A stretch of DNA of 64,000 nt from Chondrosia reniformis (lineage: Eukaryota; Porifera; Demospongiae; Chondrillida; Chondrillidae): positions 8,122,001 through 8,186,000 of the forward strand of contig OX359190.1 of assembly GCA_947172415.1 (NCBI GenBank), read 5' to 3'. Position 1 is the stretch's first letter. Each line of letters begins with the position of its first letter. Under the pieces are notes generated by a model. It ran no database searches and had not been told where the DNA came from. It worked only from the letters and a program-made list of their open reading frames with translations. This document shows positions 20,457-62,671 of this stretch, one piece after another. A program made the translations under genes and the position numbers.

Positions 20457-20987
20457 CTGTCACTCTAAAGACATGTATCCTACACGTGGACCCTCCTGTA
20501 GTCTTTGTAATTCCTACCAAGCAACCTGCAAGCATATTTAACACACTGAGGTCATTCTACGTGATCAAGTTTTGAAACAGTTTTGGACATCTCTAAGGTC
20601 CCTATACTCTGTTTGACTTTGTTTGAATTTTATGGCATGCCATTATGCGGCTTAATTCATGCCACTTACTAGCATACAACAAATGCACACATAACGATAA
20701 ACATGCACTAATATGCATATAAACTTGGGTGTAAATACATTAAAAATCAAGTTGTTCACAGTCTGCATGAGCATCATACACACATGTCCCAAATAGAATA
20801 CTAAACAGGAAGCAAATAAACATCTCAGGCTACTTCCTGAAAATACATTGCAGGCCACTTCCTGAAAATGTAAATTTGCAGACACAACAATATTACGCAA
20901 TAGATCTAGTCACGTGCAAAACTAGGTTGCGTAACATTGTAACAATAGGTCTTTTGTGTGGTCTGTCTCCCAATTGACCTGCAGACG
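20457..20987. promoter_or_regulatory. Upstream region of the sulfotransferase gene
   Basis: 531 bp between the minisatellite and the sulfotransferase start. It contains a direct duplication (CAGGCTACTTCCTGAAAATA and CAGGCCACTTCCTGAAAATG at about 20827 and 20852, with ETS-type TTCC cores) and an E-box CACGTG at 20912-20917. The minus-strand frame here is not convincing. Confidence 0.45.
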
Positions 20988-28928: not shown

Positions 28929-31714
28929 TACAAGAGTTCTTCATCCAATACTGTTGATGGTTTTCAGTGTACACACTGTATACGTATATGGAACAAATGA
29001 TTAAGTTACATTGACCACTACAGTAACATCAAAGAGACCAACTGACAGGAATTATAAACTAATACATACATATATCCTTGTTATGGGCAGAAAGTGTATA
29101 TAGATATGTATATCACAGGACATTATCAATTAATAAATGGTTAGTATACATGTTATTGTAATCATAATTTATGTGTAGCATCGTAAAGTGGTGATTGAAT
29201 ATTTTTAGAGGGAAAGACAATAATATTGTTTAATGATGCAGTTTGAGTTAGGTAGAGGTACAAATGATCCAAAATCAATGTTTTGATTTTGAAACGTGAC
29301 TTATAGCCATTGTCTTAATGTTTCATAACATCAAATATATTTCAATGTACATATATACTTCCATACCTATACACAGCTAGTAGCCTCATGGATCCTATTA
29401 CTATATATACTACATTAATTATATCACAAATTCTAAAAATAAAAGTAATACAGCTACTTTGAACTTTGGTAGCAAATTAAAAGTATAATCAAATTCCATA
29501 TTGTGACGGAATGCCAATATTATACTACTGTATTTACATATACAGTGGACAATACAAACATCAAGTACAAAGTGATACCTTGCACTTGATATACATTTGT
29601 ATAATATGCGTTAATTAAAAGAAATCGCTCATGCCAATAATTACCAGTCAATCATGTATGGGTTTTAGTTCTTATGGGGAATTTGCACATATCATTACTT
29701 ATTATCGCATATAAAGTATTCTGTTTAAATAACACAAAAACAAAAATTTACACTTTTTTGCAAAAGTTTCAAAACAAGTCCCATTTAAAAGGAGTAATAC
29801 AGATATCTACAGACTCTATAATGTCTACACATATTTCAACAATCGGATGCATATGGACAGACATACTACTACCCACACTTCAGTGTGAAGGAATTACACT
29901 CATAACAACACTATTAGTAGTCTAATCAAACAGACAAGACCACAATAGGTGATTGAGGAATCTCTAGAAACCTTTTCAAGGGAGGGGGGCAAAATCATGG
30001 TATGCTGAAATAAAGGGGGCAGAGAAGTTTGGTGGTGTTGCATTGGGGGGTTGATTAAGGCTCAGACAAATCTGCCTGGAAATACTTTCACAAGTCAACA
30101 ACACTTGTAATTTCCTTAATAACAGAATCAATATTTGTTTTAATGGACCTAAAAAGACTTACAGTAATACCCAGTCCATGCTTTTTGAAATTTAGTTTTC
30201 AATAAGCACATACAGTGATGTTATAGCATCACTATTATTGAGTGTACAACAAATTTTGGAAAATTCAAGGAATGGTACAAAATCTAATTTCTGATGAAAC
30301 CTAATAACGTTATCATTGGCCACTTAAAGTATGTGCATACAATATTTTAGAGTGTTGAGTATTCTATCAACAGTATGTACGTATATAGGTCTTTACTGAT
30401 AAACTGCAGAATACTTTGGTCATTTGCTCTTAAATGTTTTAGCCAATACAAGGAATTTCTGATGAATGGTGAGGATTATAGTGTGATACCATCATATTCA
30501 AGTAAACGCATGGAGGGTTTCTATAGAAAATATCACAAGGGAAGGGTACTAATATGATTTGAGTCAGTGACCTAGTTCAATACATTTGCTATTAAAAATG
30601 GACCCTGCACTAAACATAGCTTTCTTGTTTACATAGGCATACAATGTCCTCCTTGTGCATACATACTTAACATTAGCTCCTACCATCACACAGAATGTAG
30701 CACTAATCACAACTACAGAATTTACAGGTTTGAGACACTTTTGTTATATTTTTCTAGACACAAATATTTCAGAATTCAAAGTTTCCCATTTTTAGTTATT
30801 GATGATTAACTTTTCTCAAATTTGTTCACAGACTTAGGTATTTGTTGGTAAATACATGATCAAATAAGGTAGCTTATTAGTCTGTGATGTAATACCAGTA
30901 GTTAACAACTTTATATTGTAGATTGGAGAAGTGACAGGCTTTGACAAAAGTATTTAATCATAAGCCTTGTGCTTGCTTGTGTAATTTTGTGGGCAAACAC
31001 TTAGTGAATAGATTATGTATCTAAATATAGTGTGCAGCCTACAATGTGTGGCTTTATATATAAAATGGTAATACAATAGTTTTCTCTTTCTTTTCTTCTC
31101 TATTGGGACATGTATTAGAAAATTTTGAAACAGTATACTATGTACATTTTGAATCAATACAACTGTAAACTATTTATCATACTGTGTAATATACATTTTG
31201 AAAATGATTTATTATGAGTTCTAGAGACATTGAAAATGATGAAACATTGGAATAACAAATAAAATTCAACCTTTAACACAAGTACAACAATGGGAACTGT
31301 AATGTCTTACTTCCATTATATACCATACAAAAGCAGCTGTTTGTGGTTCAACCATCCCTTTGAGTGGTAAAGGGAGACTTAGTTCCCATTAAGAGGACTT
31401 CAGGTTTGCTCATTAGCTCATTGCACTCCTTGGGAGACATGAGTGGGTGGGGTAAATCCCGGTTCAAAATAATGACATAAAGGATTTTGTTTCTAGATGC
31501 TCATTTTTTAATTAATTACATTTTTCTTACATGCTACATCTACTTAGAGTAAAGGTCTACAGGAAACTAAACCTAGTGAGAGCTTTGAATGAGGATGCAT
31601 GCACAATTAGTGATATAAAACAGAAACGTGACGTCCCTTGTTAGTGGATGAACCCTCTTTTACTCACATATTTCATGGTAGTAAAGACAGCTTTATATCC
31701 ACCACTCAATCGTT
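28929..31714. other. Long intergenic region, repeats only
   Basis: Upstream of CD225 gene B. It holds AT-rich sequence, a G-rich repeat fragment at 29980-30060, MITE family C at about 31330-31500 (GGGAGACATGAGTGGGTGGG) and a family A fragment at 31545-31610. Open frames here are short and compositionally random. Confidence 0.5.
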
Positions 31715-39444: not shown

Positions 39445-42400
39445 AGTTATCAATAACACTATTTCCTGTGCCATGACTTGAATGTGAACACCAACTCTCA
39501 CATTTAACTTTATCTAGAAAAAGTCTTTTAAATGTTTAGGTCAGAGTTAAATGTTTTTACCACCCAGTGTCACGCCACTCCCACATACTTTTGTATATAC
39601 ATAAATTTGAGCATATTTGCCATTTCTCCTTTTCCCTCTTGATAGCCTGTCAGTTATGACTGCCCTGATCCCCATCAACAAGCAATGTTTGTGAAGCAAT
39701 ATTCAGGAGGTACTTGTGTGTGTATGTGTAGATTTACATATATGTACTTAAACTTCTTAGCCAGTAGTCTTTCTGTGTTTTGGTTTGCAGTGATAGTGTG
39801 TGGATTCTAGCCAGCCCTTTGAAGGCAAATGACATCACAGAATAATTAATTAATGATACTGTGATTGTCATGTGATAGAATAGTGATGTTGTTTATACAT
39901 ATGTAGACTGTATTTACAGTGCCATTTACTATGTTGTATTAAATGATTTTGTAATTACAGAAAAGCATTTGTAGTAAATTGTAGCAATTTATCAATTTTA
40001 TTCATTCTTAAGTGTACATCTAAGTAGTCTACATGTACGTACATTGATGTCAAGAAATGTCAAAGGCCGTAATTTAAAGTGGAATACTATAGGCAGGTAT
40101 ACAAATGGAGGTACTGACAGACAGTAATCATATTGTGAGTGAAGCCATTGTTTTCAATCTTCAGATATTGACGAAGATGAAGACTTTGATGACAAATCTG
40201 GTATATCCAATGTATCACGAAAGGATGTTCACACGCTGAACGAACAGAAGAGGAGAGATATCATCAAGAGTGGATATTCAACACTTGAAAGGATTGTCCC
40301 AACATGCAAACCCAATCCAGGAAGCACTCGACTCAGCAGGGCAACAGTACTGATGAAAAGTGAGCCACTGTCACCATGCACAGATTCTCTATACCATACA
40401 TTCACGATGGCAGGTGAACTAGTAACAAGTACATACATATATTAGCCTTTAAAATGATATGACAGTATATTATGCAGTTAAACAACATATGGGTATATTA
40501 TGTATTTTTGAAAACCTTTCATTCCAATGTATATATAATAAAAAGTAGTAGTCATGGAAACTGTATACGTTTCTGCATGAGTACACCTCAATACGTATGT
40601 ATGTACATCTAGCTGCTGACTATGTTGCTTACTTGGAGGAACAGAAAAAGAAACAGGCAGTTAAACTGGAAGAACTACGTAAGGAAGTGAAAACTTTGGA
40701 AATTATGAAGGAGTAAGTTAGATGATAGGAATTTTTTCTAGCTGCGTAAAGCTTATATTTCAGATGGTTCATCTTGAGCCTCTAGAGATGCAGTTTGTTT
40801 CTTGAGGGTCAAAATGTCCGACTCTCAAGAAAACAAACTTTGTCTCTAGATGCTGAAGTTGGACCGTCTGAGGGAGTACGTAAGTTGTTTAGTAGAGTAA
40901 ATTCTCATAGTTATTACGACCCTCCTAAAACCTAGGCTAGCTACGTATATAATACATAATGTATCATATCCTAAAACAAGAGTACACAAAATTTTATTTA
41001 AATAAGAATCGTGAACATTTATTCTAAGGACCTTGTTAAAATTTCTATCCTCGAAAATATCTTACTATACAGTACGTATTCTGCACCTGATCACTGGTTT
41101 ACTGTGCCACTTCACTACACCTGATCAGGACAGCATATTAAGCAGTCTCATTCCCACACGACTGCAATTTTAAGTGATTGTCGTACTTTGATAATGAGAA
41201 TGTCTATATACGGATTGTGTCAAACTTTCATATGTTTCATCTTTCTCCCTTAATTATTCATCTCATCCTCTCCCAATTTGGCGTACTATATTATAACGTA
41301 ACTAGGATTCCGAATATGTATGTATGTATCTTCCTCCTCATTAAATGTAACACTCTATCTGTCCATTTGTTTGGATAGAAACTATGAACAGATTGTGCGT
41401 GCACAGAGTCAGCAGGTGCGAGGTATGGGTGGCGTAATGAGATCTTCACAGCAGATACCTAATGACATCAAATTTAAATTGGTTAGCAATTATCTTTAAA
41501 ATAATGACAATACTAACACCAGAAATTAGAATAGAGTATTAACATAACTTTAAGGTTACAATAGGTGAATAATAATAATATAATAGAATACAGTTAAGTA
41601 GTTATATAGGTCATTGAAATATATGATATTGTAACTGTACATATTTTATATGTAAGTACATTGTTATTATTAAATGTATGTATGCATATATACTATATAT
41701 TTGGTAACTAGACTATTGTTCAGTTGTTATGTTTTCAGTTTTTCCAACTTTCATGCTTGAACATTTATGCAATCTAGTGTCCCATGTCTGTGGGAAATCA
41801 CTCAGGCATTAAAGTCATATATTAGAGGAATTTCCTACACAACAAAATCAATTTGTACAGGATACTATTAATTTGTAATACATACGTATGTCTACTACAC
41901 CTACATAAAAGCCAGCAAAGAAATTATGAAACCTATTAAATAAATAACAGAATTACGTATGTACGTATGTACACATAAACTCACTTGTAGCAGCCCCCAT
42001 TGTTGAGAATTTATGTACATACGAATGTATGTAAGTGTGTCTTTATATTTATTTATATTTTTACCAGTATCATAAATTGACTGGTTAAACCTTGATTGTT
42101 TACTTGGCTCTTGTACAGTTTGAAGGTATCATGAACCAACTCTTCCAGTCATTTGACTCTCTTGTTTCCATGGAAACATTTGATCAACTCTCCAGCTGTG
42201 TGATATCTTGGATCGAGGAGTATTGCTCACCTAAGGTATGATGGTCTCTTGGGCTGGTAGTTATCAAAAAATGGCGGCCAAGAAGACTACATTTTGTTTT
42301 TTCACAATTAACATGCTTTGTGTGGAGCATGTTCAACTTTTGGGTTGGTTATTTAAAGACAATTTACAACTTTGATGAACCTGCAAAATGGGGGACTTTA

Positions 42401-43690: not shown

Positions 43691-46600
43691 ATGAAAATAA
43701 AAGTCACTGTTTATCTTCTACTACTGAAGGTGCTTTTGGATAACATTCAAGTTACTGGTGAGACAGAAAAAAATTGAAATTGGATGAATTTACATTATTT
43801 TTGAAACCAAACATGTAGGTAATGAAGGAAGCGAGTTCTGGTTAGCTGTTCCACCCAACATAGTAGCAGGAGATATATATAGAAATGAATTTGTTCCACT
43901 CTTCTATGTAACTACTAATGAGGATACTCCTGTTCCATTTATTGTCAGATTTCGCTTAACTGGCACTCCCACCACACACATGGTCACCAAGGGAGAAATT
44001 GTTAAAATTGAAGTACCATCTGACCTTAAGATCAATTATCAGAACCTTAGAGGCCAAGGGAATGACATGTCTATACTCATCAATGCAACTGATGGTAGGA
44101 ACCTCATTGTCTATGGACATAATGAAGAAATGGCTTCCACAGATGCTTTCCTTGCACTTCCGAAATTTCAAACTACTTCAGGAATATATGAATATTATGC
44201 AATGTCAGTAGGAGACAGTGATCAATTTGCTGGACCCTTGGTTGGCTTTGTTGTTATTGTTATTAATGAAGATAACACTGATGTTAGAGTTACACCAACA
44301 CAGAATGTAGTTACATTTTTTGGCATAAATACTTTCATAACTGCTGGAGATACGAAGAGAAGAAGGAGAGCTAAAATGGGTGAAGTGTTTACCTTTGTTG
44401 CTTCTATGGGGGATCTTACTGGCACTAGAGTTGTAGCAGACAAGCCAATAACATTCTTGACTGGTCATGAATGTGCATTTGTTCCATTAGAAAATATAGC
44501 TTGCGATACTTTACTTGAACAAATCCCACCTACAGAAATCTGGGGGTATACCTTTGTCCTGACACCACTTGCAATTAGGGAAGCCAGTGGATTCAAATTT
44601 GTAGCAAGCAATGATAGAACAGCTGTTGAAATATCATGTAATGACCAGAATGGTAATAATGTCCACCAAGAAAAGTTTACTCTAAATGCTGGAGAATTTA
44701 ACTTTAAAATTTATCCTAAGACGTATTGGTGCTATGTCAATTCAAATCTTCATCTCTTGGTTGCTACAATCTCTCTCGGATACACTTTTGATGAGCCTAT
44801 AACTGAAAGTAACCTTGCTGATCCATTTCTCCTCATGATTCCACCAGCTAGCCTTCTGAAACAAAGTTACACCTTAATATTCACCCAAAGTGATGCAATA
44901 GGTTCCTTTGTGGATGCTGTAAACTTTGTGCCCTTTATAAATTTCTTTATATTTGCTAATGATTTGGGAAATGAGAGTCTTCAGTTAAGCTATGGTGGTC
45001 GCACCCTAGATTCTAGCAGAATACAGTTTCATGCAATTAATAATTCTGATGGCAATACAGTTGCCTATGGAGCAACCTACCAACCTCCAGTTAATCCATC
45101 AGATCCAGCCAGTGTTTTTACAGTACATTCAGAAAACACTATTGGAGTGATAGTGTATGCTTTCGCTAGAGAGACTTCCTATGGATATCCCGGTGGAATG
45201 AGTTTACATGTACATCCTCTTGTTGAATCTGGTATGTATGTTTGCACATTTATCATGCAAATTTAATTTTATGATTTTGATAAATGTGTCATATAGATTA
45301 TAATGCTAGCTAATTAATTGGGAAATGGGAGTCTTGATAATGAATATAATGGCTGTACACCTTGTTTGAGTGGTATTGGTTTTGAAATTGCACTAAAACA
45401 TTTAAAAGTATACATTGCACTGATCATCAATTTATAAATTTCATTGAGTGTATCTTGCATATTTGAAATTTTGTGGCTTCGATATCAGTATGTATGTCTC
45501 AGATATTTAAGAACGTATATATGCATATCAAAGTAGTCTAAAGTTAATCCGTTCTACTATGTTATATATATATATTACCTTAGTATATTGTAACTTGTAC
45601 TGTAAATATAAATATCTACAGCAAGTACATATACCATGTATATATGTATGTGAAATATATTATATATACAGTAGAATCTCAGTATAACGAAATTGCTTAT
45701 GTCTTGGTATAGTGAAGTACTTTGCTAGCCCCAGTAAAAATTGTATACTTTTATGTACATTCAATATAGTGAATATTTGATATATATATATATATATATA
45801 AGGAACTTATTTTGGTCCCCTTTGAGCTTGAGATTCCACTGTACAATATGTACGCATATACCCTTTATAGCTGTATGTTTATACAGCTATATATATAGTG
45901 TGTGTGCATGTACGTATGTATCAGAGAGTACGGTAGTACTCTCTAAGTAGGAATGGCCGGAAGAAAAAAATGGCCGCCCTATCCAATGTATTAGCAATCA
46001 ACACCTCATAAATCGCCAACGAAGCGATTTTCGGATATATTCGGTTATTTGCAGCGATTAATGCACGTTTTCCTAAATGCCAAAACATGTTTCGACGCTC
46101 TACACGCTCTATAGCGTTCAAAAAGCGGCTAACTAGGAATAGACCCACTTCCAAAATTCATTTTTTCTTCTTCTTCTTCTTCTTCTTCTTCTTCTTCTTT
46201 TATTGAATAGACTAGCGCTAATATGCGAACTTATGCGGGCACGTACTAGTTATAAATCGTCATAGATATTTCGGAACTAGGGAATAGACAGCCCTAAATC
46301 TGAATGCGTTCTACAATAAGCATGTTAATTGTGAAGAGCGAAAATTGTGGTCTTCTCGGACGCCATTTTTTAATTAAGAGATCATGGTTTTAGGCATATT
46401 TCTCTTGTCTAAGACGTTATTTTGAGATCTTCGCCAAGAAAACTTTCAAATCAATTTAAAACAAGTAATATTAAGAGAAAAAAAGGGGGAATACAAGTAA
46501 ATAAAAAACATTTACAAAAATGATGTTAGAAGTAGTAATGGCAGTGTTCACTAATACATCTGCAAAAAGTATCGAAACAAGACACTGATTATACGATAAG

Positions 46601-49600
46601 GCTAATCATACAGAAGTTGCATATATACTGAAATTTAAGTAACTTAACCATACACTTCTGTGTTTGGGCGCACCATTCCTACTTAAGGTTAGTGCGCCCA
46701 AACACAGAAGTGTATGGTTAAGTTACTTAAATTTCAGTATATATGCAACTTCTGTATGATTAGCCTTATCGTATAATCAGTGTCTTGTTTCGATACTTTT
46801 TGCAGATGTATTAGTGAACACTGCCATTACTACTTCTAACATCATTTTTGTAAATGTTTTTTATTTACTTGTATAAATATCAATCAAAATATTTGTGTTT
46901 TGATATTTTGTTTTCTGTCACTCCAGTTTGTTCCATTAAATCCATTGTGAGTGATAATCAATTAACAATCACTGAAGGTGAAGAAAGTGAATTTGAAATT
47001 GACTTTTTCATGTCATGTGATGACTCTGGAATTAAACTTGAATGGTCTGTTTCTAGATCTGAAAGACTTGGTACGTAAATAAGTTCTTCCGGGTACCTTC
47101 ATCCATATATATCCAAAAAAGAATTAATACTGATTTTATTGGCTAAGAAATACTATGTATAGAGCGATATAATAGCACATATATAATACAGATTGTAAGC
47201 TAGATCACGTGGCATATCAATTAAGTTTACACACCGAGTAAACTCTGCAGTACTGATATATGTGTTACATACGTACCTAAAAGCTCTGCAGTCCCAAATA
47301 CAATATAATATATGAACTAGGTTTTATTTTGTAACTGCCACCTAAAGATTTTGTGATTTATACAAGGTGTCAGCCCTGGTAAAGTGTAATTACCTGACAT
47401 TCCACAAATATAAAGTTATCTTTTGGACAACAGCAATCATAGTTAAACTTGAGCTCTCCCAAAGGATTCTTTCAGATGTTAAACAATATATATTCACAGA
47501 AGCTCCTCCTATGTACATACGTATATGTGCATATATATGTATTGACTGGTACATGTATTATAAAAAGCAGTCTTATTGATCAAATTTTATTGTAGACAAT
47601 GGATGTAATGGTCAACTGGAGTTCCGCCAAAATAATGAAACTTATAATGGTAACTACCCTTGGCATACCCATGGAGCTTTTGTAGCCAAAGAGGATGATA
47701 TTGTCAGTTGTAAAAACCAAACTATCCTGTACAAATTGGAGGCCTTGTTGGTAGCAATGCAACAGAATGCAACGGATGTAAAAATCCGTGATTATAGATC
47801 TCTTACAGTAGATGTGACTTTAATTGACAATGATGGTATGTATTTATATCTTGCGATTTGTACACATACATGCATGATATATAAAGTTTGTATATACGTA
47901 TATGTAAATTAGTCTTTGCAGTTTCTCTGAATTTATAGAATTGTACGTTAACTTTGTGGTGAGATTATTGCCAGTGTTCAAACAAGAACTGGAGGTAAAT
48001 GTGAAATTACAAGTGGAACTACAACTAAATACAACATTTGATGAATTCACAGTGTTTGCCAATTGTACTGCAGAAAAAGGTAAGCATACAGTATACGTAT
48101 ATAGAAAATGTTATTCTAATACCAAGAAGTTTATATATATAGTTCATATATTACCTATAATATATAGAATAATGATTTATCTAACTGCATCACCATCGAA
48201 CTTGTATTATCTATTGAATCATCTTTCAACTTTTAGAGCATCTAATATTTACCTAATTGCTTACTGCAATAATTCACCTCTCAATTTTAATAGATGCAGT
48301 TGTTGATATTTTAAAAAATGACTTAAGCTTATCACGTGCACCACAAAAGCAAAGCAATCATGTTCTTAAAAAGTGTAGCAAAGTTTTTAGTTATCCAGTT
48401 AGCTTCCAGCCTAATAATGAATCGATGATTAGGAAAGGTTTAAGAGTATGGCCAGCTTCATTTGTTTTGACTGTCTCTGATTACTACAATGACAGTGAAC
48501 AAGTAAGTCTACCATTATCACTTCAATGCAATATTTATCCGCCCAAGGAAAGAAGTTCTATAGTTGGAAAAAATGGTACAATGAAAATTGAAATTTGGGA
48601 TTTCAAAGGTACGTATATACATAAAAATGATATCAATGATACATTAGGATTTTGTTTGGAATCTACTTACATGTGGAAAAATATATTAATGTACTGTTAA
48701 CATTATATACATTAGATATAGCGAATAGTATTATACATATATATTATTAGAATGGTATTTTGTAACTTGCACTGTATATAAACCAATGATAAAGCATGTG
48801 TATTAATATACTAATTTGAAGAAATTTTGAAATTGATTCATATACAGTATGTATGCATTAAGAGAGGTTGTATATATTTATTGTTTTATATCTTCCAGAA
48901 TTGCATGTACTATATACATGTGAACAAATGGAGTTTATTGCAAGAGCCTGTGCAAAGGCTATGATGAGGAAATATTCACTGTAAAAATATTATGCCAAAC
49001 CAGCTGGACTGCGGTCACTTGGTTGGTTTGGCGTAATACTTTTCCAGTGAATATTTCCCCATCATAGCCTTGCACAGGTTCTGTGCAGCTAACTCCATTT
49101 GTTCTTTGTGAGTACTCAGTCTTGCATGCTTAGACTATATAGCCTTCACCTTCAATTATTATGAAACCATAAGTGTTTCACTTGTGGTGGATTGATAAAT
49201 GAAGCCAGTCACCCAAGCTCACCACCCAAACTCACCACCCAAACTCACCACCCAAACTCACCATCATTGAAGTGTACCACACGAGCCCAAATGAGGGCGT
49301 GGAACAGTTACCTGCAGCTGCATGTGGCTCAATTTTTATGGATAATTTTTTCATCTTGGATGACTGGGAGGCGATCTCTCCATGGTTGCCAATTAATAGG
49401 ACTTTAGTCCCCCAGGCAAGATTACACTGTGGTCGCTTGGCTGGTTTGGCGTAATATTTTCCAGTGAATATACATGTAGCCTCCATAACTTGATAAGAAC
49501 TAATTTAGTAGTTTTTGAATTCTATCTATTGTATACACTATACGTAGATGTTCAGATTCAATTTCTAGAAAGACATGTATACGTGCAGAATGGAACTGAT

Positions 49601-52600
49601 GCAGTTGAATTAGGATTAACTACTAATATCCGACTGGAAAGAATACATTTCAATGTAACTATTGCCTGCAATTCAGAAGAAATTTGTAAGTCCCTAGGCC
49701 TATATAAATATTTTGCATTGCAAGTTACAAAATGTACATATGACTCAAAGAATGAACAATATTACTTCAAGTTGAAGTAACATGAACTCTATATACATAC
49801 CTAACCTTGGTATCACTACATGTATATATATATAACTTGTACTGTATATATGCCTATTATAATGCTGGTATTCTCGGAACACATGAATCATTGCATAGAG
49901 CTAGAGGAAATGGTTTACTGTAACAGTTATTAATTAGTTAGATCAAGCTACTCCACATGCAGCTATAAATAGGAAATGGCAATTAAGCCTCATCACAAGT
50001 GCATGGCACGATTTTCTTATAAATTGTTAATTGAGTTTCACTTGGTCTAACCTTGAACTTTCATTGCTTAAAGAGAGTATACTCCCTGTATTGTAAATTG
50101 TTCAAGTTTTTCTTTTAATATGTACGTACATGTAGGTACATGTGTAGAATGGACGAAATGATTATTACCCCATAAAAGAGTTTACAAAACAGAAAATCAG
50201 TCATTTTTCATTAAGACTTATAATAAATTGAATTAGAAAGTGAATATGTTTTCCTTTCAAAAGTTTCAAGCCCCCATTGTATTATAATATACATACATAT
50301 GTATATTACAAAGCTACTAGCTATTAAAAGTCAATCTTAGGCAGGCTTATTTAATCATCACAGTAACAGTAGTATCTAAGATTGACCTATACCTATACAT
50401 TTGTGAAGAAATAAAGACCAAAAAATTGCATGATAGAACTGGCCCTCGATCTTTCATAGTAATACTAGTACTTACTTTGCATTGTACGTAATATATAAAT
50501 GTATTCTATTTGTAACTTCAAAGACTTGTATATTCTTCAGTTGAATTTCTAGTAATTGGCCAAGATATCTTACCAACATGTACAGTTATCAGGGAAATCA
50601 GCTTTCTGGATCCCCAAATACAGCAGTTTTTACTATTTACCACTGACTTTGCAGCAAATCCATCCTCTATAAATTGTTGTATAAAAAATCTTTCAGTATC
50701 AAATGGGATAAGGATTGGTAAAAGAGAATGTGTCACAATTCAGCTAATTGAAATATGTATGTTTTAATTTAGACATAGACTGAAAAGCATTTCAATTGCA
50801 TCTTATGTATAGGTGTGAATGAAGTCAATTATTATGTTTAGCCAATTTATGCATTATTAAAAATAGAATAAATTGTATAAGTATATATTTATTGGTTTTA
50901 ATAATGTATATATATAGTTCCTTGAGTATGTATAATATGTTGAAGTGATAGGGCTTATTTGTCGCGACCATGATGAGATATGAAGTTATTGAGCAACATT
51001 CAAAAGATTAAATTTTATTGTTGCTGTTGCTCAATAAACTTCATATCTCATACTAGTTATGTTATACATAATAGACACATAATTATACTAATATTAAGCT
51101 GGTGTTTTATTCAATTATATAGCAATGCATGATTTCAGCTAGGTAACACATGTACTTATATACACCAAATGCATATGTATATATATGAAGCTTCCTAGCT
51201 GGTACTTCTATGTAAGTATATAATCATATGCATGTAATAGCACAATGTACTATGTATATTATATATAGTAATTAATGTGGTGTTTGAGCCAGAAGAGATT
51301 TTGGTTAATGAAAGTGGACTTGCTATACTTACATTACAAAGTCAAAATTCAAATGTAAGAAGATTTAATGTCAGTGTGGAATGTGGGATGACACCCTTCA
51401 TTTCCAAAGGTGAATTGTTTATTTTAATTTCTCAGCTTAAGCAAAACATTCATCCACAAGTTATATGAGAAGATAATGACATTGTAGTTAGATATACGGT
51501 ACGCATATACTGATATACGTATGTATATTTACTATATATTAGCTTTCATATCATAACTATTATTGTAACAGAATGCAGATCATTTCGACATAAAATTCTT
51601 TATCAACTGCTATATATATCAACACTTGATGAGTACATTAAAGTTAAAATGTTATGCATATTATATAAGTCGCAGTTGTGATCTACTCGAAAGTTATATT
51701 GGTGAATACTAATTGCATATGTAATTATATTTGTTATTTGTTATATATTTTATATGCCTAGGTGAAAGCAACTTTGTGGAAAGCTTTACATTTAATGGAG
51801 GAGAATCTGAAACAAGGATGCATGATCTTTCTAGCTACATTGAATCGCTGCCTACATTTGAATGCTATCTTCTAGAGAATGCGATGCCTTATCTTACTAT
51901 CCAGGGATATGATGGAAAACTTGTCAGTAACCACTCAAAGTTGACAATAAAATTTGTGATCAACGTTAACATTGATGATTGTAAGTTTTTGCACTGGTTT
52001 TATTGATAATAATTATATAAAATATTGTGTATACGTATATACATGTATACCTTATATAAATATTTATGTTTGTGTGTAATGTGTAACAACTTATATATCA
52101 CGTTACCCAGGACAACCGGGTGATATCTGGGGTGTTATAAACCACACTTGAACTAGTGATAAATGTTATATCACCAATAGGCCTACTCATGTTTACTTAT
52201 CATCACCTTACAATACCTTATCATTGATTCAAGTCATATACGTGATATGTACATTAATTATATACCACACTCAAGTGTGAAGCTAAGTGATATCCGCCCT
52301 CGACCTTTGGTCTCAGGCAGATATCACTTATGCATCACACTTAAGTGTGGTATAACTACTACGTATATATAAATAATTTATTATATTATTACATTTCATT
52401 ATAGCAATCATGGAAAGGAATACTATTATACTACCTCTGGCCATATCTATTAGTGTGCTAGTATTAATTTGTTTGCTTGCTACTCTGATTATTGTGATGT
52501 CTGTTTACAGGATCAAGTTAAAAAGTAGAAGGTACACATAAATTACATATTGTGAATGTACGTATATATTCATTATGCATGGTGGCCCATATATATATAT

Positions 52601-55600
52601 ATATCACTTCTGCAATTGTGATCCAAGAAGTAATAATATTATATATATGTATGTATGAATTGATTTATGTTCTTGTAATTCACTGTACTCTGTGTGATCC
52701 AAGTGTCCACAACAATGGGATGTAAGAAGAGTTCCGATATCAAAGAAATGAAAAAGAAATTTATATATTAAAATTGAAAGGATTTCTCTAATGCATTTTA
52801 AATTCTAATATTGTCAATAATCTTTTGGATGGTTCATATTTAAACTCTTTGAGTGCAGCCTAGTGGGGTTGAAACGTCCAACAAAAGATTTACTAAAGTG
52901 TGTCTTTAGGTGCTCAAAGATGAACCATCTCCAATTAAAAGAAATCATTATTTTATTATTTGCTAATAATATACTGTACATTTATTCATTACTTTTGTAA
53001 CATTTAGAAGAATGTGCCTACTGCAGGAGAGGAGATATACAGTAAGACAGGGTAGCACATGCAGTATTTTACATTGTATATGTTTGCATGCATGTATGTC
53101 TATAAATCCATTTTGTAATTAAAACAAAATTTTACTACTCAGCCATATTAAAAATACAAATTTAAAAAATTGTTATATCATTATACATTTTGTTCTGTTA
53201 TGTATATGCATGTAGCTACAGATGCTAAGCTTAATGGAAAGAGAGGAAGAGTGGGAGATACCTCTGGAAAAACTGGTTATGATTAAGCAACTTGGAAAAG
53301 GCAATTTTGGTGAAGTACAATTGGCCTACATTTCACCTGATATAAAAAAGGAAAGGGCAAAAAGTTACATGGAAAAAACAAAGTACAGAAATCCATGCAT
53401 TCCTCCCAACCTAGTTGCTGTCAAGAGGTTAAAAGGTAACATACATTTGAATTGGCAAAAATATATTTTATTATTATATTTTAATAATTTTAGGATATAC
53501 TACGATAGATGAACAGATATCATTTATTGATGAGATGAACGTAATGAAGAAGGCTTCAGATGGAGAATGTCCTCATGTTGTCAACATAATAGGTTGTATG
53601 ACTACTTCTACTCCATTTTGCATCGTAATGGAATATGTCCCCTTTGGAGATCTGAGATCTTTTCTAAGGAAGATGAAAGATGAGGTTCATTATTTTATAT
53701 TAGCATTAAACACATGAAAGTACACGCAGAGATTCTTGTTCTATATATAATAACTATATAATACGTATATAGCCATGCGGAAACCAAAATTCATTTTAGC
53801 AGTTATTTATATGCATGTTAAACAACAGCATAATATTATCTTTTTAATTTGTTATTTAGCTAATCTTGTACCTGAACTTAAGATTTAACTCTATTTTCAA
53901 TATCAAACAACTGCATGACTGCTGCATGTAAAAATTATGATCAGGAAGATTACCTATTTTTACCAAATACACATTTCTTAGAAAAAGAAGGAAGTAATCA
54001 TGGATAAAGAAGTGGAGAGGGTTAATCTTTATGTTGAAAGTGTTCCCAATGCTAATCAAAACGATGAATCAGTTAATGATGACTACACAAGTTATGGAGT
54101 GATAACTGTTGAAATGAATGATTTCTTCTCCTTTGCTTACCAAATTGCATGTGGAATGGTAATTTTACTAATATGAGATTAAGTATATATTTAATTCTAT
54201 TATTTTTTATGTCAACTCAGCAACATTTGTCTTCCCTTGGAATTGTTCACCGAGATTTGGCTTGCAGGAACATTCTGGTTGACTGTGGAAAACTTCTCAA
54301 AGTGTCTGACTTTGGATTGAGTAGAGAAATTGAAGATTACTACACTGCATCATCCCTAACAAAATTGCCAATCAGATGGATGGCACCGGAAAGTATTACA
54401 CATCAAAAGTACTCTGAAAAGTCTGATGTGTGAGTGCAAATGAGAAACAAATCAGAAATTACACCTTTTCCTATATAGCTGCACTATGATATACTATTAA
54501 TTATATTATATATAGCATATAGATTGGGTCTCACATGCATATATGTAAAGTATGCATGGCCGGAGATGGCATATCAGGGATATATATATACAGTACCTGT
54601 CATGCAATTTAATTATATACATACTAGCTGTATAATAATAGCATATAGATACATATATACCATAAAGAATTTAGACATATATATATCATTTTTAACTTTC
54701 TATATATAATTTGTTGTGTTATACTGCTATGGAAAAGTCAAGATCTAGTTTGTCAATATTAATATTGTTTTTAAAAATTTTCTTACCATGAGTATATGCA
54801 TGAATTATGTATACGTATATAATAAAGTTAAGCTTTTATATAGATGGTCATTTGGAATCTGCATTTGGGAAATTTGTACTTTGGGTAAGTATAATAAGCT
54901 TCTTAAAATTTACATATACGTATAATATAGTGCATATAATTGGTTGATTGTGATAATGATAAGCAAAAAATAATTATGTAATCACCGGAACGTATTACAC
55001 AAAACCAAGTGACCTCAATCTAATCTTGGTTAGGGGGACCAAAACCCTATTAAATTGGCAACCACTGATCACCATCCAAGAGGTTTGACGTAATACATTC
55101 CAGTAATTATTTGAATATATATCATCATGGACTTTGCACAGCTCATGCAGTGCAATTATATACCGTATATGTCCGTATAGAAGCCAGGCTCAAATAGAGG
55201 CCCGGGCCTCTATTCGGACATATACGGTAACTCCTCTATAGTTCACTCCCCTATATTTAGTTCATATATATATTATTGTATGCATAATATTGTATATATA
55301 GGGGCTGTTCCTTATCCTGGTATATCAAATGAAGATGTATTCAACATGATAAAGTTGGGATACCAGATGAGTAAACCTGATGGGTGTAGTGAAGAAAGGT
55401 GAGTACTGTATATCTTTTTTACATACGATTAATTGGTTTTGGTGTAATAATATTATGTATTCTGTATATATGCATATATAATACATTATATACTTATATA
55501 CATGCTTGATACACACGTGCATATATGTATATATAGTTATGATGATATGCTTTTGTGCTGGAAATGGGAGCCTTCAGAAAGGCCAACCTTTCTTGAGTTG

Positions 55601-55708
55601 AAGTCACACTATGAAAGCATTATTGAAGCAAAGCAGGAAGGGAGCTATTTGGATTTCAATACAATTTTTCAAGACAGTACCACAACAGAAGGAGAGCGTA
55701 AAGTGTAA
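43691..55708 (+). CDS. Receptor tyrosine kinase with IgGFc-binding-like N-terminus, 1433 aa
   Basis: Nineteen exons: 43691-43757, 43819-45231, 46927-47070, 47596-47835, 47939-48079, 48294-48608, 49548-49685, 50541-50756, 51269-51409, 51762-51980, 52405-52531, 53008-53041, 53216-53435, 53494-53684, 53982-54158, 54221-54429, 54844-54884, 55302-55398, 55537-55708. Layout: signal peptide (KVTVYLLLLKVLL); a roughly 470-residue IgGFc-binding-protein N-terminal-type domain (starts NEGSEFWLAVPPN); four two-exon modules (about 494-1011) resembling diverged Calx-beta sandwiches, with many N-glycosylation sequons; membrane helix (IILPLAISISVLVLICLLAT); juxtamembrane; and kinase. Kinase motifs: LGKGNFGEV (near 1092), VAVKRLK, a kinase insert, HRDLACRN (Asp about 1273), SDFGLS (Asp about 1291), twin Tyr in the activation loop (EDYYTASS), PIRWMAPES. 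All catalytic residues are present. The short tail holds SYLDF, a possible SH2 docking Tyr. It is a plasma-membrane receptor; the ligand is unknown. Donor GTTCAT after 53684 is weak. Confidence 0.92.
45665..45840. repeat. AT-rich repeat segment in receptor kinase intron 2
   Basis: Begins ACAGTAGAATCTCAGTATAA and ends GAGATTCCACTGTACA; the ends are short inverted copies (TACAGTAGAATCTC versus GAGATTCCACTGTA). It encloses a TA microsatellite (45780-45800). It is probably a small non-autonomous element. Confidence 0.55.
45946..46688. mobile_element. Putative TA-targeting element with AGTAGGAATGG ends
   Basis: The left end TA-AGTAGGAATGG (near 45946) is answered by CCATTCCTACT-TA (near 46676). 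TA flanks both sides, as for mariner-type target duplications. The interior is CpG-richer than the flanks, has a TTC microsatellite (46167-46198) and no transposase. Unexpectedly it also contains the left arm of the 183-bp inverted repeat whose right arm lies outside it. Confidence 0.55.
46491..46874. repeat. Near-perfect inverted repeat, 183-bp arms, 18-bp loop
   Basis: Left arm 46491-46673 and right arm 46692-46874 are equal in length and appear fully complementary by eye. The loop is CATTCCTACTTAAGGTTA. The right arm ends 52 bp before exon 46927-47070 of the receptor kinase. The transcript would form a very long intronic hairpin. Confidence 0.93.
48922..49104. mobile_element. Foldback element with GCCAAACCA/TGGTTTGGC core
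   Basis: The left arm (GAACAAATGGAGTT, GGCTATGATGAGGAAATATT, TATGCCAAACCAGC) is answered by TGGTTTGGCGTAATAC, GAATATTTCCCCATCATAGC and CCATTTGTTC. A partial second copy of the right half follows at about 49430-49485, and a diverged relative sits at 54976-55105. It lies in the receptor kinase intron before exon 49548-49685. Confidence 0.7.
49205..49265 (+). repeat. Short tandem repeat (CTCACCACCCAAA)
   Basis: About four to five copies of a 14-bp unit in a receptor kinase intron. Confidence 0.8.
50950..51058. mobile_element. Foldback element in receptor kinase intron
   Basis: ATGAGATATGAAGTTATTGA, GCAACA is answered by TGTTGCTGTTGCTCAATAAA and CTTCATATCTCATA. The string TTGCTGTTGCTCAATAA also occurs at about 17718, so it is probably a dispersed family. 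Confidence 0.6.
52261..52354. mobile_element. Foldback element with TACCACACT inverted ends
   Basis: TATACCACACTCAAGTGTGA, AGTGATATC is answered by GATATCACTTA and CACACTTAAGTGTGGTATA. The terminal TA suggests TA target duplication. A related segment at 52095-52160 (GGGTGATATC...ACCACACTTGA) suggests nested or tandem copies. It lies 50 bp before the transmembrane exon. Confidence 0.65.
52845..52935. mobile_element. Foldback element, family B variant
   Basis: The arm GATGGTTCATATTTAAACTC, TTTGAGTGC is answered by GTGCTCAAAGATGAACCATC. The centre reads GGGGTTGAAACGTCCAAC. It lies in the receptor kinase intron after the transmembrane exon. Confidence 0.65.
54976..55105. mobile_element. Foldback element in kinase-domain intron
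   Basis: TAATCACCGGAACGTATTAC is matched inversely by GTAATACATTCCAGTAATTA. The inner CCAAGTGACC...GGTTAG resembles the core of the element at 48922-49104. Confidence 0.5.
55165..55228. repeat. Inverted repeat CCGTATATGTCCG/CGGACATATACGG
   Basis: Two arms of about 13 bp enclose AGGCCCGGGCCT, itself a palindrome. The inner GGCCTCTATTCGGACA-type text recurs at about 43102. Confidence 0.75.
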
Positions 55709-56932: not shown

Positions 56933-59900
56933 TTACAAATGAAAAAGAAGAGAAAGGTGCTTGTCCTCTTGCAGTTTCTGCAGAACCTCTTCATGTATTG
57001 GATACTTGACAGATGTATCCTGAAGCACTTTGCAAAACAGCCTCAATGTCTCCTCTGTACCAGTACTCAGGAGGTGACGGAGAAAGATTACATTGGATTC
57101 TTCTCTGCTCTTTGCTGCTTTGATTTCATCGTACACCTTGTCTGTAATTAGTGGCTTTCCGCCCATTCCCTGGTACAGTTCGTTGACTATGTTGCGAATG
57201 GCGAGGTTTTCTAAAAGGTAAACCCAGTGTTTGGCCCGTAAGGTCTGCTTCCAACTGCCTCCTTCACCATCACACTCTCCCGAGTTGTCAGATGGTGCTG
57301 GCTGTCTAACAACTTCAGGTCCTCCAGTACAGGTAGACTGGTCTTTATAGAGAAGGAACTGGTCTCCATCAAATTCCACTTTACCAGCCACGCTCAACTA
57401 CGTATACAGAAGAAGATATAAAAATCACAAATTACTTGTGTCAAAAAAATAACAATAATAACATATTAAATAGAGTCAGTAGCAGCAAGATTAGAATTGC
57501 TACATTTGTGATAAGGTCTATTTTGTTGAATACATAATATGCAAACTTACATTGGTGTTGCTGTCCTGTTCCTTAGCAACCCAAACCAACTCTCTTGGAG
57601 ATAACGACTTCACCTTGTTCAGTCTGGTACACAGACCCTTTCTCTGGTTGCCACCTTCAAATCGCAGTAGATGCAAACTGAAGCCCTCACAATTCTGGTG
57701 ACTGCAAATGACCCCGTCCTCTAAAGAGGCTTTCTCTTCAAGAAACTCTGCACCAAATACTACCTCACTCATGTAACAAATGCGCTCGTACATCTCATTT
57801 CTGATGTGCCTGCAGAGCTCAGACAAAGACAGCTCTGTGTTTGGAAAGTCCTCAGGAACCAACAGTTGAAGTTGAATGAGGTCTTCCTTTTGGGAAAGAG
57901 CAATGTGGGCATCTTCTTGTGTGAAAATGAACTGTCTACTGTCAGACTGCTTGTGGCAGTACCTCCACTGCTTTCGTCTCAACTGCAATGGCCTTACTTC
58001 CTCCTCGTTTAAAACCTGTCTGCCACTTGCAATATCTACAGCCAGTCTGTGGAATAGACCAGTTGGTACACAGCTGTATCTCTCATATTCATCAGATTGG
58101 AATGAGAAAGTGAATCCCAAAGTGGCCACAGATGCTTCAGGTAGGTGGATCTGCCTCTCAGGAAGGACTGCGGGAATGAAGTAGTGTGTCTCCTTCTCCC
58201 TCACTTTGGCTGCAATACCAACATTTACTAGGACCTCCAGGAGCCATCTTGTTGGGATGTCAGCATCAATGCCTAGCTGCTGAAACAAAGCCTCAGAAAC
58301 AGCTTCAGAAATCACACCTTTTTTAATGAATTTGCGTAGCTCTGGACATGAGGATTCTCTTGGGCCATATTGGACCGATAGCACTTTGGACATTTCCTTG
58401 TACAGAAAGGTCGCATCTGTACAGATCCACTGCTCTTTGTACTCACTCAGGTCAAAGTACACATAGAACCGAAGGCTGTGAAACAGGTTCAGCAGTGCAA
58501 GGAGCTGTCCATCAGCATCTTCAGCTTGGATAAATTGGCATCGGATGCAGAACTCTTTCATTTCTGTGAACTTCCACATCTTCTTTTTCACGCTAGATGT
58601 GATTACTTGCAGGCAGAACCAAACTTTGGGGACTTGCAGTGTTAAGCGATTCTTGCCATCTGAAAGTAGAGAGCGAAGAACATTTACAACTTTACGAGTG
58701 TGCTCCTTCAGTTTGCTGTCTCCCTGTAGCTGACTGTCCACTACAAAGTAGCTATCAGCACATTTGTAGGCAACCTCTTTTGGGGGGAATACCCTGTTGC
58801 TGTCATATGGTTTGTTGTCCATTTCTTCTAAAACCTTCTCGTTGTGGTCCAGTAGAGCTCTCTTAGCTTCAGGATCTTTGGGAAGAAGGGAAAGGTGAGT
58901 GCCAACAAGGAAAATGCGAAGTTGGGGCTCAGTGGCAACATTGAATGCTTCCAACTGCCGCTTGCTCTTCATGGACATTGTGTAGGCAGCTGTAATGGAC
59001 TCCTTCATCAATTCCCAGGTTGAACGGCTGTTGGCACTCTCCACTTCAGTGACTCCATCTTTACAGTAAGCATTGATGTACGGATCTGTCAACCTCTCTG
59101 AAGCTTTAAAGACGTGCAGAAAGTTGCAGGGAAAGTCCAGTAGGAGTGGAAGGACATTCTGAAAGGAGGGCTGGCCTCCTGTGTCCAGCAGGTAAATGAA
59201 CATACATTCCTTCTCATCAGAAGTGGCTCCAGTGGGAATACTATGCTTCTGTAAGAATCTCTCCCTGGCCTGGTATAGTAACAGTAAAGGGTCCTGGTGT
59301 ACTGGGGAAGGACTAGAGTTACTGGGAAGGGCTTGTGTGGCAGCAGTCAGAGATGGATTGGGAGAGACATCAGACTGCACTGTTGTTGACTTTCTCTTAA
59401 ACAGCTTTTTGACTTTGCCCAACAAAGTCAATACTCTTGTGTTACCTGCTGATGTAGCTTGTCGAGGCGAGTATTCTGTGATGTGTGGAGTGTTGCTGGG
59501 AAAGGTCTTTGTCTTCTCCATATCAATTTGGGAAATAAGCTCACCTAATTTGTCATCATCCAAAACTTCCCAAGACGACCCAATGGCAATGCCTTGTGCA
59601 ATGGTGGCCACTTCAGGGGCTTCCAGCACTCCAGTGCTAGTTTTGTCTTCTCTTACTGTGTTGTGGAGCAGGTAGTGCTTCAGTGAGGTTTTACCAACAC
59701 GCGAACCTCCTGTGAGGAAACAGCAGATAATGTTCACTTCAACTGAACCATGTTCATCTATGGCCTGTTTATACCATTTAGGATCCTCCTGCAGGTAGAG
59801 CACAGAGAAGGAACTTATTACACTACAGGTTTCATACATTTTCCATGAAAGTATGTCATACATTTACATATACCAACTTTTATCATATCATATAGCATAG

Positions 59901-62671
59901 TTAGATCACAAACAGACAATAAAGCAGCTACCTACGTATGTAAATGTACATATGACATACTCTCGTCTGATAATACTTTCTCCAAATCAATGTATAACTG
60001 GTCAATAAAGCTAATTAAAAATGGCCACAGGACCACAAGCATTACAACTATTTCCACACTTTAACGAGTAAACGGATCCCCAAAAACGTATCTATTTGTC
60101 CAATTAAGTACGTACATACGTATATCTGCAAACTGATATTACAATTAGCTGACTGTGTATATGGCCAGAATGTGTACATTCTCCCAGTTAATTAGATAAT
60201 TGCTACATAGGAATATGTACTGCTGTTTATTATTGTCATTGCCAAACTTCACATTAATTACTTTTCAATAGTTCACCCACAAAGGGACAGTCTGTGTTTA
60301 TAAACAAACATTCTTTTGACAATTCAGTCAATAGGTCAATACTGTTGGTGATGCTTAGCTTTAGGAAAACTAGCAAGAAGCATCTTTAGAGAACAGTCAA
60401 TTCAGCCAAGTAATACAGTCAATACCCGACACCTCTTCAAAACATTCACTGACACATTCATTTGACTTCTGTTTACCTTTCACTTGCTTTGAACAAGAAG
60501 TACTTAAGTATTTAATAAAAACGTGGCAACTCGCTTTTTTATAATAACAGACAAAATCAACGGCGCCCCAAAAATTAGGCTACAACTTGTTGAATACTAA
60601 AACAAAATGGCCGACTTCGTCTTATGATGCTTCCGTGCCTAGCAATTAATTCTCGCTTCTTGCTGTTAGGAAGCAGTTTATTAACAACTAACATTTCTGT
60701 ACTACCAACATCTTATAACTAATCACACGAACCTACACAGGACGAGAAATTAACATACGTACGTAGTACGCGATAATAAACAGTTTAACTACAGCGGATA
60801 ATACTTGAAACGCTTTCCTCTACATTCTCACTTTAAATACAAAGAACAAGAAGACTTAACAGTCTTCGTTAGTGGAAACAAGATAACACTTAAACTCGTG
60901 AGAGCGTTCGTAGAAGACACTAGTAGGAGAACATTAGAACGATACAAGTCTTGTTAACATTGACACGCGCTTCATGTACACTGAGCGCACAAGTTAGGTG
61001 ACTCTAACGAAGGAAATAAAACCTTCTAATGTTTCTATTTGAAGGAGAAAGTGAACGCGAAGCGCGCAACGAATGTTAACAAAACTTGTAATACTTAAAT
61101 AAGTTTACTAACCTTAACTGCAATGTCGTATTGTACAGCTCTTGTCTGACGTTCTACTCCTCCAAATGATAATCCTCCAATGGTGAGAAATGTTGTTCCG
61201 TTGAGGGAAGCCGTACAATTGAAGGGATAAGACGTTTCTTCACTAATTCGTGTCCACTTCTCCCTCTCGAAAATGAAGATTCCTTTTGGACCTACTAGGA
61301 CTGGTAGCGTACTGTATTGTAATAGTGAACTGTCCTGTGGTGCATACTCGAGCTGTTCCCAGTGATGTACATCATTTGTTGTAAGTGAAGCCATAAAATT
61401 CTTCTTATTCATTCTCCAAAAATATCCATTGTAGTAGTAGTAGATGTAAATGTATTCACCACACAATGCCATGTGGTGTGATGATAATGGTACAAGAAGT
61501 TTCAGATTCGACTGTATCCATATTCTTTTGGTAATATCCAGGAATTCAATTGTGTCTACTTTTTCGCCATATGCTCCTCTTCCTCCTCCAGACACAATTA
61601 CTAAGTCTTCAAATGCAAGAACACCTGGACTGGATCGGGCGGTGTGCATTGGAGGATATAGTACTTTCCATTCTTTGCCTGTCCATGTCACTAGATCGTT
61701 TGTAGGAGTGCCTCGAGTGTCTTCACCTCCTATTAAAGTAAACTGGTTTCCTATGATGGCTGCTCCACTGCGAGAATGAGGAGGTCGGGGTAGTGCTGAC
61801 CATTTAGTGTTTCTAACATCGTAAACCTGAACCTGTTCCTCATCGCCTCCATAGACGAAAACACTTTGATGATGTACTAGTGCTTTAGCTAAGGATGTTC
61901 CAAACAACATTTTGGGGATATTTGTGGATTTGAGGAGATGACCTCCTCCAGCTGTGAGGAGGTCACTGCGAAAGACCTAATTGAGATAAGAAACATTTAC
62001 TGATTGAAACGTGTCTGCTTGGAAACTATAAATTAGCACACACGGATATGTAAGTTTTCAGTAGCAGTTTATTACCAGAAACCTTTGAGTTACAGTCTGT
62101 AACATGCAGTCTTTTTGTACAAAGTCCAACTTAACAGAATGTAAAGAGTCATTTCAGCGTTTACTGTCTAATAGTCTATTAAATCTGAACCTCCTCAACG
62201 TGCACTAGTTAAACATTCTGCCACTATATGGACGAGCCGCGTACTTCGCTTTCTAAAGTGTTCCTTAGAAGCCTACGAATTTCAAGGTTGCATTTCGCTA
62301 GCCAGTTTGAGCGAGGTTTTGCATAACCCATGCAACTGTGTCGCAGTGTTCTAAAGAAAGAGACTTTGGGAAAGGGTCTCTGAAAGCTATTCTAAAGGAG
62401 TGATACTCTCGAGTAATATCAGCTTAGGATAACCACTCTTTCAGCCTGGCGAGTTGGACGCATTTCAAAGACTGAGTTTACAAGACCTGGCTAGATATTT
62501 CGCTGAATTGGACTATTTCTGGTAACGAGTTCCATACACTGGCAGAACATGTAGTTCGCTAAATTAAACTGAACTCATTTTGACCGGTGAAAGGTTAGCG
62601 ACTGTGAGTCTATATAGTAACATCCACTTCTACGAGAAACTGAATAAATAAATAAACTCACTTTAGACATA
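56933..62671 (-). CDS. Kelch-ROC-COR (ROCO) protein with C-terminal CARD-like domain, 1191 aa
   Basis: Exons on the minus strand: 62663-62671 (ATG TCT AAA only), 61113-61976, 57551-59788, 56933-57397, all phase 0. N-terminal beta-propeller of Kelch type: GGDEEQVQVYDVRNTKW, IGGEDTRGTPTNDLVTW, VSGGGRGAYGEKVDTIEFLD, TIGGLSFGG. Then a ROC GTPase: P-loop TGGSRVGKTSLKHYL (about 317-331), switch II LLDTGGQPSFQ, and LVGTHLSLL in place of NKxD. The COR domain follows (FHSLRFYVYFDLSEYKEQWI; ISEAVSEALFQQLGI; YFIPAVLPERQ). The last exon reads as a CARD (WVYLLENLAIRNIVNELYQ, DKVYDEIKAAKSREESNVIF, TGTEETLRLFCKVLQDTS). ROCO proteins are GTP-regulated scaffolds; a CARD implies homotypic signalling in cell death or immunity. 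The Kelch-to-ROC join crosses a 1.3-kb intron with a GTTAGT donor but a strong acceptor and matching phase. Two separate genes remain possible. Confidence 0.78.
59789..61112 (-). other. 1.3-kb presumed intron between Kelch and ROC exons
   Basis: No exon is visible. It contains a YY1-like AAAATGGCCGAC at about 60604 and several CpGs between 60590 and 61080, a pattern also seen at promoters in this window. That leaves open a separate ROCO gene starting here, or an internal promoter. Confidence 0.45.

Follow-up and report, generated by a model that had tools for sequence, protein, structure and literature searches.

How does a receptor tyrosine kinase (RTK) come to bear a head that is common with a family of matrix-like proteins, and can such a head be exchanged for another? 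The question is raised by a gene at positions 43691-55708 of a 64,000-nucleotide stretch of the genome of the demosponge Chondrosia reniformis (C2:8122001-8186000), which is here called the window; genome searches covered 117,379,552 bases in 15 contigs of this one sponge genome. The locus is best read as one intact gene encoding a single-pass RTK that was assembled by phase-1 exon shuffling, and we put the probability of this reading at roughly 0.75. As far as the genome was searched, the gene appears to have one close paralogue, and the two seem to differ in their heads, which are an IgGFc_binding domain and a CAP domain, respectively.

From the ATG to the end of the stop codon, the gene model comprises 19 exons and 1433 codons with no internal stop. 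All 18 introns are GT-AG, and introns 1-10 are all in phase 1; such a run of ten has a chance of about 1.7e-5 by simple arithmetic, if the three phases are taken as equally likely. The exons encode, in order, a leader (exon 1), the head (exon 2, 1413 nt), four two-exon modules forming the stalk (exons 3-10), a transmembrane segment (exon 11, 127 nt) and the kinase (exons 12-19). A signal peptide is predicted from the hydropathy of exon 1 (2.6), and the extracellular region and single transmembrane helix are predicted from reading the translation; the product would be made from a single transcript and would be located at the cell surface. The first-pass annotation had described alternating short and long module exons, each divisible by three, and phase-1 introns throughout the array from head to transmembrane exon, and the gene model agrees on both points (lengths in Table 1). 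Its proposal that the four two-exon modules arose by exon shuffling is backed by the gene model and by the same array in the paralogue. Because the paralogue repeats the eight-exon phase-1 pattern, this pattern is not a matter of chance.

Pfam matches to both terminal domains, together with the gene model, bear out an RTK with an IgGFc_binding head. The head matches IgGFc_binding (PF17517) with 139.2 bits against a cut-off of 25.6 (2.3e-40, aa 132-379), and the corresponding profile match in the genome lies at C2:8166145-8166882. The kinase matches PF07714 (PK_Tyr_Ser-Thr) with 273.7 bits against a cut-off of 23.1 (1.8e-81, aa 1086-1400, profile positions 2-256 of 258). Its catalytic motifs GKGNFGEV, VAVK, HRDLACRN, DFG and APE are intact by eye, and judged from these motifs it is an active-looking kinase. 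By eye, two adjacent tyrosines (YY) also stand in the activation loop, and helices D and E are separated by a long insert. The top-ranked PDB sequence match is an EGFR chain (2.4e-79), and human RET (2.3e-66) and FGFR1 (2.1e-60) are among the best of 2564 matches; the comparison with RET and FGFR concerns the kinase domain only and implies no orthology. Among the papers listed by searches of PMC, judged by their titles, abstract openings and some passages, none was recognised that describes a tyrosine kinase receptor with an IgGFc_binding head. The earlier remark that this architecture is not known in vertebrates is beside the point, since the gene comes from a sponge.

The paralogue lies on contig C9 (locus L040, from position 1601 on). 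In a search with the array at E<=10, 11 matches were obtained, namely the eight window exons and three exons of the C9 copy, and no other locus was found. The kinase exons of the window gene likewise have their highest identity to the C9 copy, reaching 84% in the catalytic exon. The C9 array consists of eight exons of 150/255/141/333/132/180/159/249 nt, all in phase 1, and is followed by a transmembrane exon of 127 nt, the same length as in the window gene. Where the window gene has IgGFc_binding, however, the C9 gene has a leader and a CAP domain distributed over three exons, the last of which ends in phase 1; when spliced, these exons match CAP (PF00188) with 61 bits against a cut-off of 21.1 (2.5e-16, positions 1-117 of 117). 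Four kinase exons are 75-89% identical between the two genes, whereas the transmembrane exon reaches 34% and the eight module exons 25-43%; the kinase exons were compared singly and unspliced, and the last exon of the C9 gene runs off the fetched piece. Paralogues with varying numbers of modules, for which the first-pass annotation suggested a search, did not appear; the sole other copy found has the same number of modules under a different head.

On C9, an IgGFc_binding match (C9:5659174) that precedes the kinase of the paralogue by 16 kb was considered as its head and rejected, because Calx-beta and VWD frames and then the CAP head follow it. In the surrounding locus L039 (C9:5658500-5667999), unspliced frames for IgGFc_binding, Calx-beta and VWD follow one another, and the locus is possibly one aggregation-factor-like matrix gene. 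By coordinates, inspected by eye among the matches listed, at least 3 of the 56 IgGFc_binding matches in the genome are followed on their own strand by a kinase match no more than 30 kb away: the window head, C9:5659174 and C5:7126536. At the last of these, no recognisable ectodomain was seen by eye in the 3 kb upstream of the nearby kinase.

To view the wider kinase class, six regions upstream of kinases (L041-L046) were fetched, and their translations were read by eye, with no Pfam call. These kinases are about 53-64% identical to the window kinase in the catalytic exon. SRCR-like exons can be observed in four of the six (L042, L043, L045, L046), accompanied by FN3-like exons in L042, L043 and L045 and by Ig- and LDLa-like exons in L046; the L041 region contains FN3-like pieces and transposase-like frames, and L044 was uninformative. 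The four SRCR-type RTKs thus belong to the same wider kinase class as the window gene, but they show neither IgGFc_binding nor a module array within the 9 kb fetched for each. Given the SRCR-, FN3-, Ig- and LDLa-like ectodomains in these regions, the class carries several kinds of ectodomain, of which the IgGFc_binding/CAP pair is one branch.

The relatives of the head lie elsewhere. An alignment and tree were built from 45 heads among the 56 matches, comprising the window head plus 44 loci; a head-like frame was present in 46 of the loci that were fetched, of which L027 (score equal to that of L026) and L039 (same place as L035) were omitted, and the remaining matches were not fetched. The window head and eight others (L047, L050-L055, L057) form one group with a support of 100/100, within which the branching is mostly unresolved. 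The eight sister heads are 71-78% identical to the window head in protein sequence, and by coordinates all eight have Calx-beta matches downstream on the same strand, at L057 about 10 kb away. In these IgGFc_binding and Calx-beta genes the Calx-beta units exceed the Pfam cut-off, unlike the window modules, and no kinase lies nearby among the kinase matches listed, unlike at the window gene. Close to the member at L047, a long tandem repeat that is readable in more than one frame was also seen (L064:564-1515). An AlphaFold model of the window head is confident and mostly beta (mean predicted local distance difference test 88, predicted template modelling score 0.90). A fold search of the PDB with this model gave 5 of 1141 matches at E<=0.001, with no global structural match among the best 50 of the 1141 (template modelling score by query length <=0.16), and the head profile has no solved sequence relative in the PDB up to E 1.

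The nucleotide sequence of the head carries a further trace of this family. Between the window head and L053, 106 of 329 degenerate codons with identical amino acids differ synonymously, but 50 consecutive codons of this kind (44196-44351) have no synonymous change, a run that was reached in 0 of 10000 permutations. In the same test, the longest runs shared with L050, L055 and L057 were reached in 0, 1 and 11 of 10000 permutations; those shared with L047, L051, L052 and L054 were reached in 370 to 827 and are unconvincing. In a nucleotide version, the longest run was reached in 0 of 2000 permutations for all eight sister heads. DNA identity to the sisters is uneven along the head, with 85-100% at blocks 44200-44379 and 50-67% at blocks 44860-45219. 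The identical tract is read here as gene conversion within the family of heads that precede Calx-beta repeats.

Stalk, membrane helix and kinase are thus common to two sister genes whose heads seem to differ, with phase-1 introns at the joints, and the head of one has a conversion tract in common with a matrix-like gene family of the same genome. PMC8662651 describes domain shuffling in the ectodomains of receptor kinases, by which RTK families are believed to have diversified, and neither "Calx" nor "IgGFc" occurs in its main text. In our judgement, the exchange of ectodomains in receptor kinases is seldom caught. Because stalk and kinase are shared, the heads seem to differ, the joints are in phase 1 and a conversion tract is present, head exchange can be tested here in a living sponge. 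An adhesion-type outer domain, common with a matrix-like protein family, seems to have been joined to a tyrosine kinase, which makes the gene a candidate for coupling Calx-beta matrix proteins to kinase signalling.

The nature of the stalk is less clear. Of the two Pfam families that the first-pass annotation named, IgGFc_binding was recovered, but Calx-beta (PF03160) was found in none of the four window modules at E<=1, and an NCBIfam search of the array also gave no match. Its description of the modules as diverged Calx-beta repeats therefore stands only in part: the pooled profile and the split in mid-domain speak for it, and the Pfam result and the weak tests of single modules speak against it. 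For these tests, a local hidden Markov model (HMM) was built from 11 Calx-beta units of this genome, and each module was compared with 200 shuffles of itself. Window modules 1-4 were equalled or beaten by 14, 7, 7 and 0 shuffles, and those of the paralogue by 62, 1, 1 and 15, so that seven of the eight failed to beat all their own shuffles and only window module 4 did so.

When the eight modules were pooled, which presupposes that they are related, hhalign aligned the resulting profile to Calx-beta with a score of 27.7 (E 4.6e-4, probability 33%) over 38 columns, covering the first half only and placing position 2 on position 2. Among the controls, the best of 30 column shuffles scored 12.9, the reversed profile 11.0 and a four-sequence FN3 profile 9.2. 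Modules 3-4 pooled scored 23.2 over 104 columns, against controls of at most 13.7. The single module pairs were ambiguous: pair 1 scored 16.5 (best column shuffle 16.8, reversed 17.0), pair 2 scored 16.8 (14.5, 12.0), pair 3 scored 16.5 (15.2, 9.2) and pair 4 scored 17.9 (13.3, 21.2). Moreover, the split of each module falls at the point where this genome also divides its Calx-beta domains. Among the Pfam Calx-beta matches listed, many start only at profile position 49-55, and four Calx-beta loci have readable short halves (about 45 aa) and long halves (about 67-75 aa); the search for these halves was restricted to phase-1 exons and is therefore no independent test of phase. In the Calx-beta genes one open frame often runs through a long half and the short half that follows it, whereas in the receptor each half has its own exon. 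At least one cysteine is present in each half of all eight modules of the two receptors, and a disulphide would be a guess.

Alternatively, the modules could be some other two-exon, beta-rich domain whose likeness to Calx-beta is due to convergence. The absence of any Pfam match in the window modules, the scores of pair 1 below both its best shuffle and its reversal and of pair 4 below its reversal, and the short pooled alignment with its presupposition of relatedness are all in keeping with this explanation. It does not account well for the distance between the pooled scores and their controls or for the coinciding split, and we consider it unlikely. On the strength of the pooled profile comparison and the mid-domain split, the modules are probably, though not provably, diverged derivatives of Calx-beta.

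The kin of the head bear on what it may bind. To our knowledge, sponges have no IgG, and the domain name says nothing about the ligand here. Because Calx-beta and VWD are found beside IgGFc_binding heads, a matrix or adhesion reading is favoured, and instead of IgG the likelier ligand is one in the extracellular matrix or on a cell surface. The first-pass annotation had thought instead of microbial or mucus-like ligands, which would make the protein a pattern-recognition receptor kinase. In a figure of PMC8242945, IgGFc-binding and Calx-beta are placed among the "other domains" of pattern-recognition receptors of Halichondria panicea, but the legend does not tie them to kinases. The ectodomain also diverges far more than the kinase between the two paralogues, as a sensor of microbes or glycans might; the nearest heads, however, precede Calx-beta repeats, and a more distant one stands near Calx-beta and VWD. 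A microbial or mucus-like ligand is thus doubtful. Under the preferred matrix or adhesion reading, the following scheme is proposed from RTKs in general. The head would bind a matrix-like or cell-surface ligand, with the four-module stalk as a spacer; clustering would bring the kinases together, these would trans-phosphorylate the YY activation loop and the tyrosines of the insert, and SH2-type effectors would be recruited next.

Aggregation factors are secreted proteins with Calx-beta repeats and VWD. A Calx-beta link would connect them with the receptor, and one IgGFc_binding head of this genome lies near both Calx-beta and VWD, which are traits of these factors. The window gene, by contrast, encodes a membrane helix as well as a kinase and shows no Pfam match to Calx-beta or VWD, which places it outside the aggregation factors. 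In PMC10815962, sponge aggregation factors are described as proteoglycans with Calx-beta that are tied to allorecognition in demosponges. It is a long shot, but the receptor might be the signalling partner of the sponge's own aggregation-factor-like matrix, with conversion keeping its head matched to those of the IgGFc_binding and Calx-beta proteins for like-with-like binding of self matrix, and with head exchange on an unchanged stalk and kinase adding new inputs for the lineage. If so, it would supply a kinase step, so far missing, by which aggregation or self-recognition of sponge cells is signalled inward.

It has finally to be asked whether head and kinase belong to one gene, as the joint between exons 2 and 3 was deduced from gene structure. 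Several observations weigh against a single shuffled gene. The IgGFc_binding profile is covered only over positions 2-229 of 297; the C9 model has unspliced kinase exons and a stop beyond the fetched piece; and exon 2, read on in its own frame, meets a stop 35 nt beyond its donor (45264-45266), while by eye the frame of the C9 head likewise closes soon after its donor. Because both frames close so soon, the head exons could end as separate proteins. Moreover, a dispersed element and a perfect inverted repeat with 183-nt arms lie in intron 2, whose length is 1695 nt. Sequences similar to this repeat (46491-46874) occur at L019, L029, L034 and L044, and so a MITE-like (miniature inverted-repeat transposable element) insertion at the head-stalk joint is probable. 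Another inverted repeat, with 48-nt arms that are 92% complementary and 21 nt apart, lies at 48955-49071 in the intron between exons 6 and 7.

On the other side, exons 2 and 3 can be joined in phase 1, donor to acceptor, as can the head and the first module exon of the paralogue despite its other head. A phase-1 donor is also present at the head end in all seven sister heads inspected (L057 left out). When intron 2 was filtered for alternative first exons (ATG, at least 15 codons, and a phase-1 donor of a few common patterns), one start remained, at 45753, with a poor hydropathy of 1.3 against 2.6 for exon 1. At L024:1135-2688, by eye, an IgGFc_binding frame continues with no stop into a Calx-beta-like first half, a direct fusion of head and module. 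Because of the matching phases, the like arrangement of the paralogue, the poor alternative leader, the donors of the sister heads and the L024 fusion, head and kinase very probably belong to one gene. Two genes, namely a secreted IgGFc_binding protein from 43691 to its stop and a downstream RTK with its own unseen first exon, with a CAP gene likewise beside the C9 receptor, are quite improbable, although a stand-alone neighbour is conceivable because the genome has 56 IgGFc_binding matches.

Table 1. Exons of the receptor gene and two sequence features within it, in window positions
Feature	Position	Strand	Basis
Exon 1: ATG and hydrophobic leader resembling a signal peptide, phase 1 out	43691..43757	+	gene model; hydropathy only
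Exon 2: IgGFc_binding head (aa 23-493), phase 1 in and out	43819..45231	+	Pfam, genome match, AlphaFold 2
Putative conversion tract, 156 bp, synonymously identical to L053 head	44196..44351	+	0 of 10000 permutations
Dispersed element in intron 2, a perfect inverted repeat (arms of 183 nt, spacer of 18 nt) that stops 52 nt short of exon 3	46491..46874	.	
Exon 3: module 1, first half, 144 nt	46927..47070	+	gene model
Exon 4: module 1, second half, 240 nt, C-terminal LTVDVTLIDND	47596..47835	+	gene model
Exon 5: module 2, first half, 141 nt	47939..48079	+	gene model; 43% identity to paralogue exon
Exon 6: module 2, second half, 315 nt	48294..48608	+	gene model
Exon 7: module 3, first half, 138 nt	49548..49685	+	gene model
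Exon 8: module 3, second half, 216 nt	50541..50756	+	gene model
Exon 9: module 4, first half, 141 nt	51269..51409	+	module 4 is best window module against local Calx-beta HMM
Exon 10: module 4, second half, 219 nt	51762..51980	+	gene model
Exon 11: transmembrane helix, 127 nt, phase 1 in, 2 out, like paralogue	52405..52531	+	gene model
Exon 12: juxtamembrane	53008..53041	+	gene model
Exon 13: kinase N-lobe, glycine loop, VAVK	53216..53435	+	gene model, Pfam
Exon 14: kinase, helix C to hinge	53494..53684	+	gene model, Pfam
Exon 15: long insert with tyrosines separating helices D and E, start of helix E	53982..54158	+	by eye
Exon 16: catalytic loop HRDLACRN, DFG, activation-loop YY, APE	54221..54429	+	gene model, genome kinase comparison
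Exon 17: kinase C-lobe	54844..54884	+	gene model
Exon 18: kinase C-lobe	55302..55398	+	gene model
Exon 19: kinase end, short tail, stop	55537..55708	+	gene model

Other open frames can be observed in the window outside the receptor gene. One with a sulfotransferase domain lies at 20949-22214 (Sulfotransfer_3, 3.4e-10), and a helix-loop-helix frame at 40143-40445 (HLH, 1.3e-7) is Max/Mlx-like by reading. On the reverse strand, a frame at 27990-28940 consists of repeated EDQTSVAASSTTAA-type units, has no Pfam match at E<=0.001 and is apparently a coding minisatellite. A frame of 781 codons at 57518-59863, also on the reverse strand, contains by eye a GTPase-like P-loop, GGSRVGKTSL, and is possibly Roco-like, with no Pfam match at E<=0.001; a Kelch-repeat frame lies on the same strand at 61095-61976.

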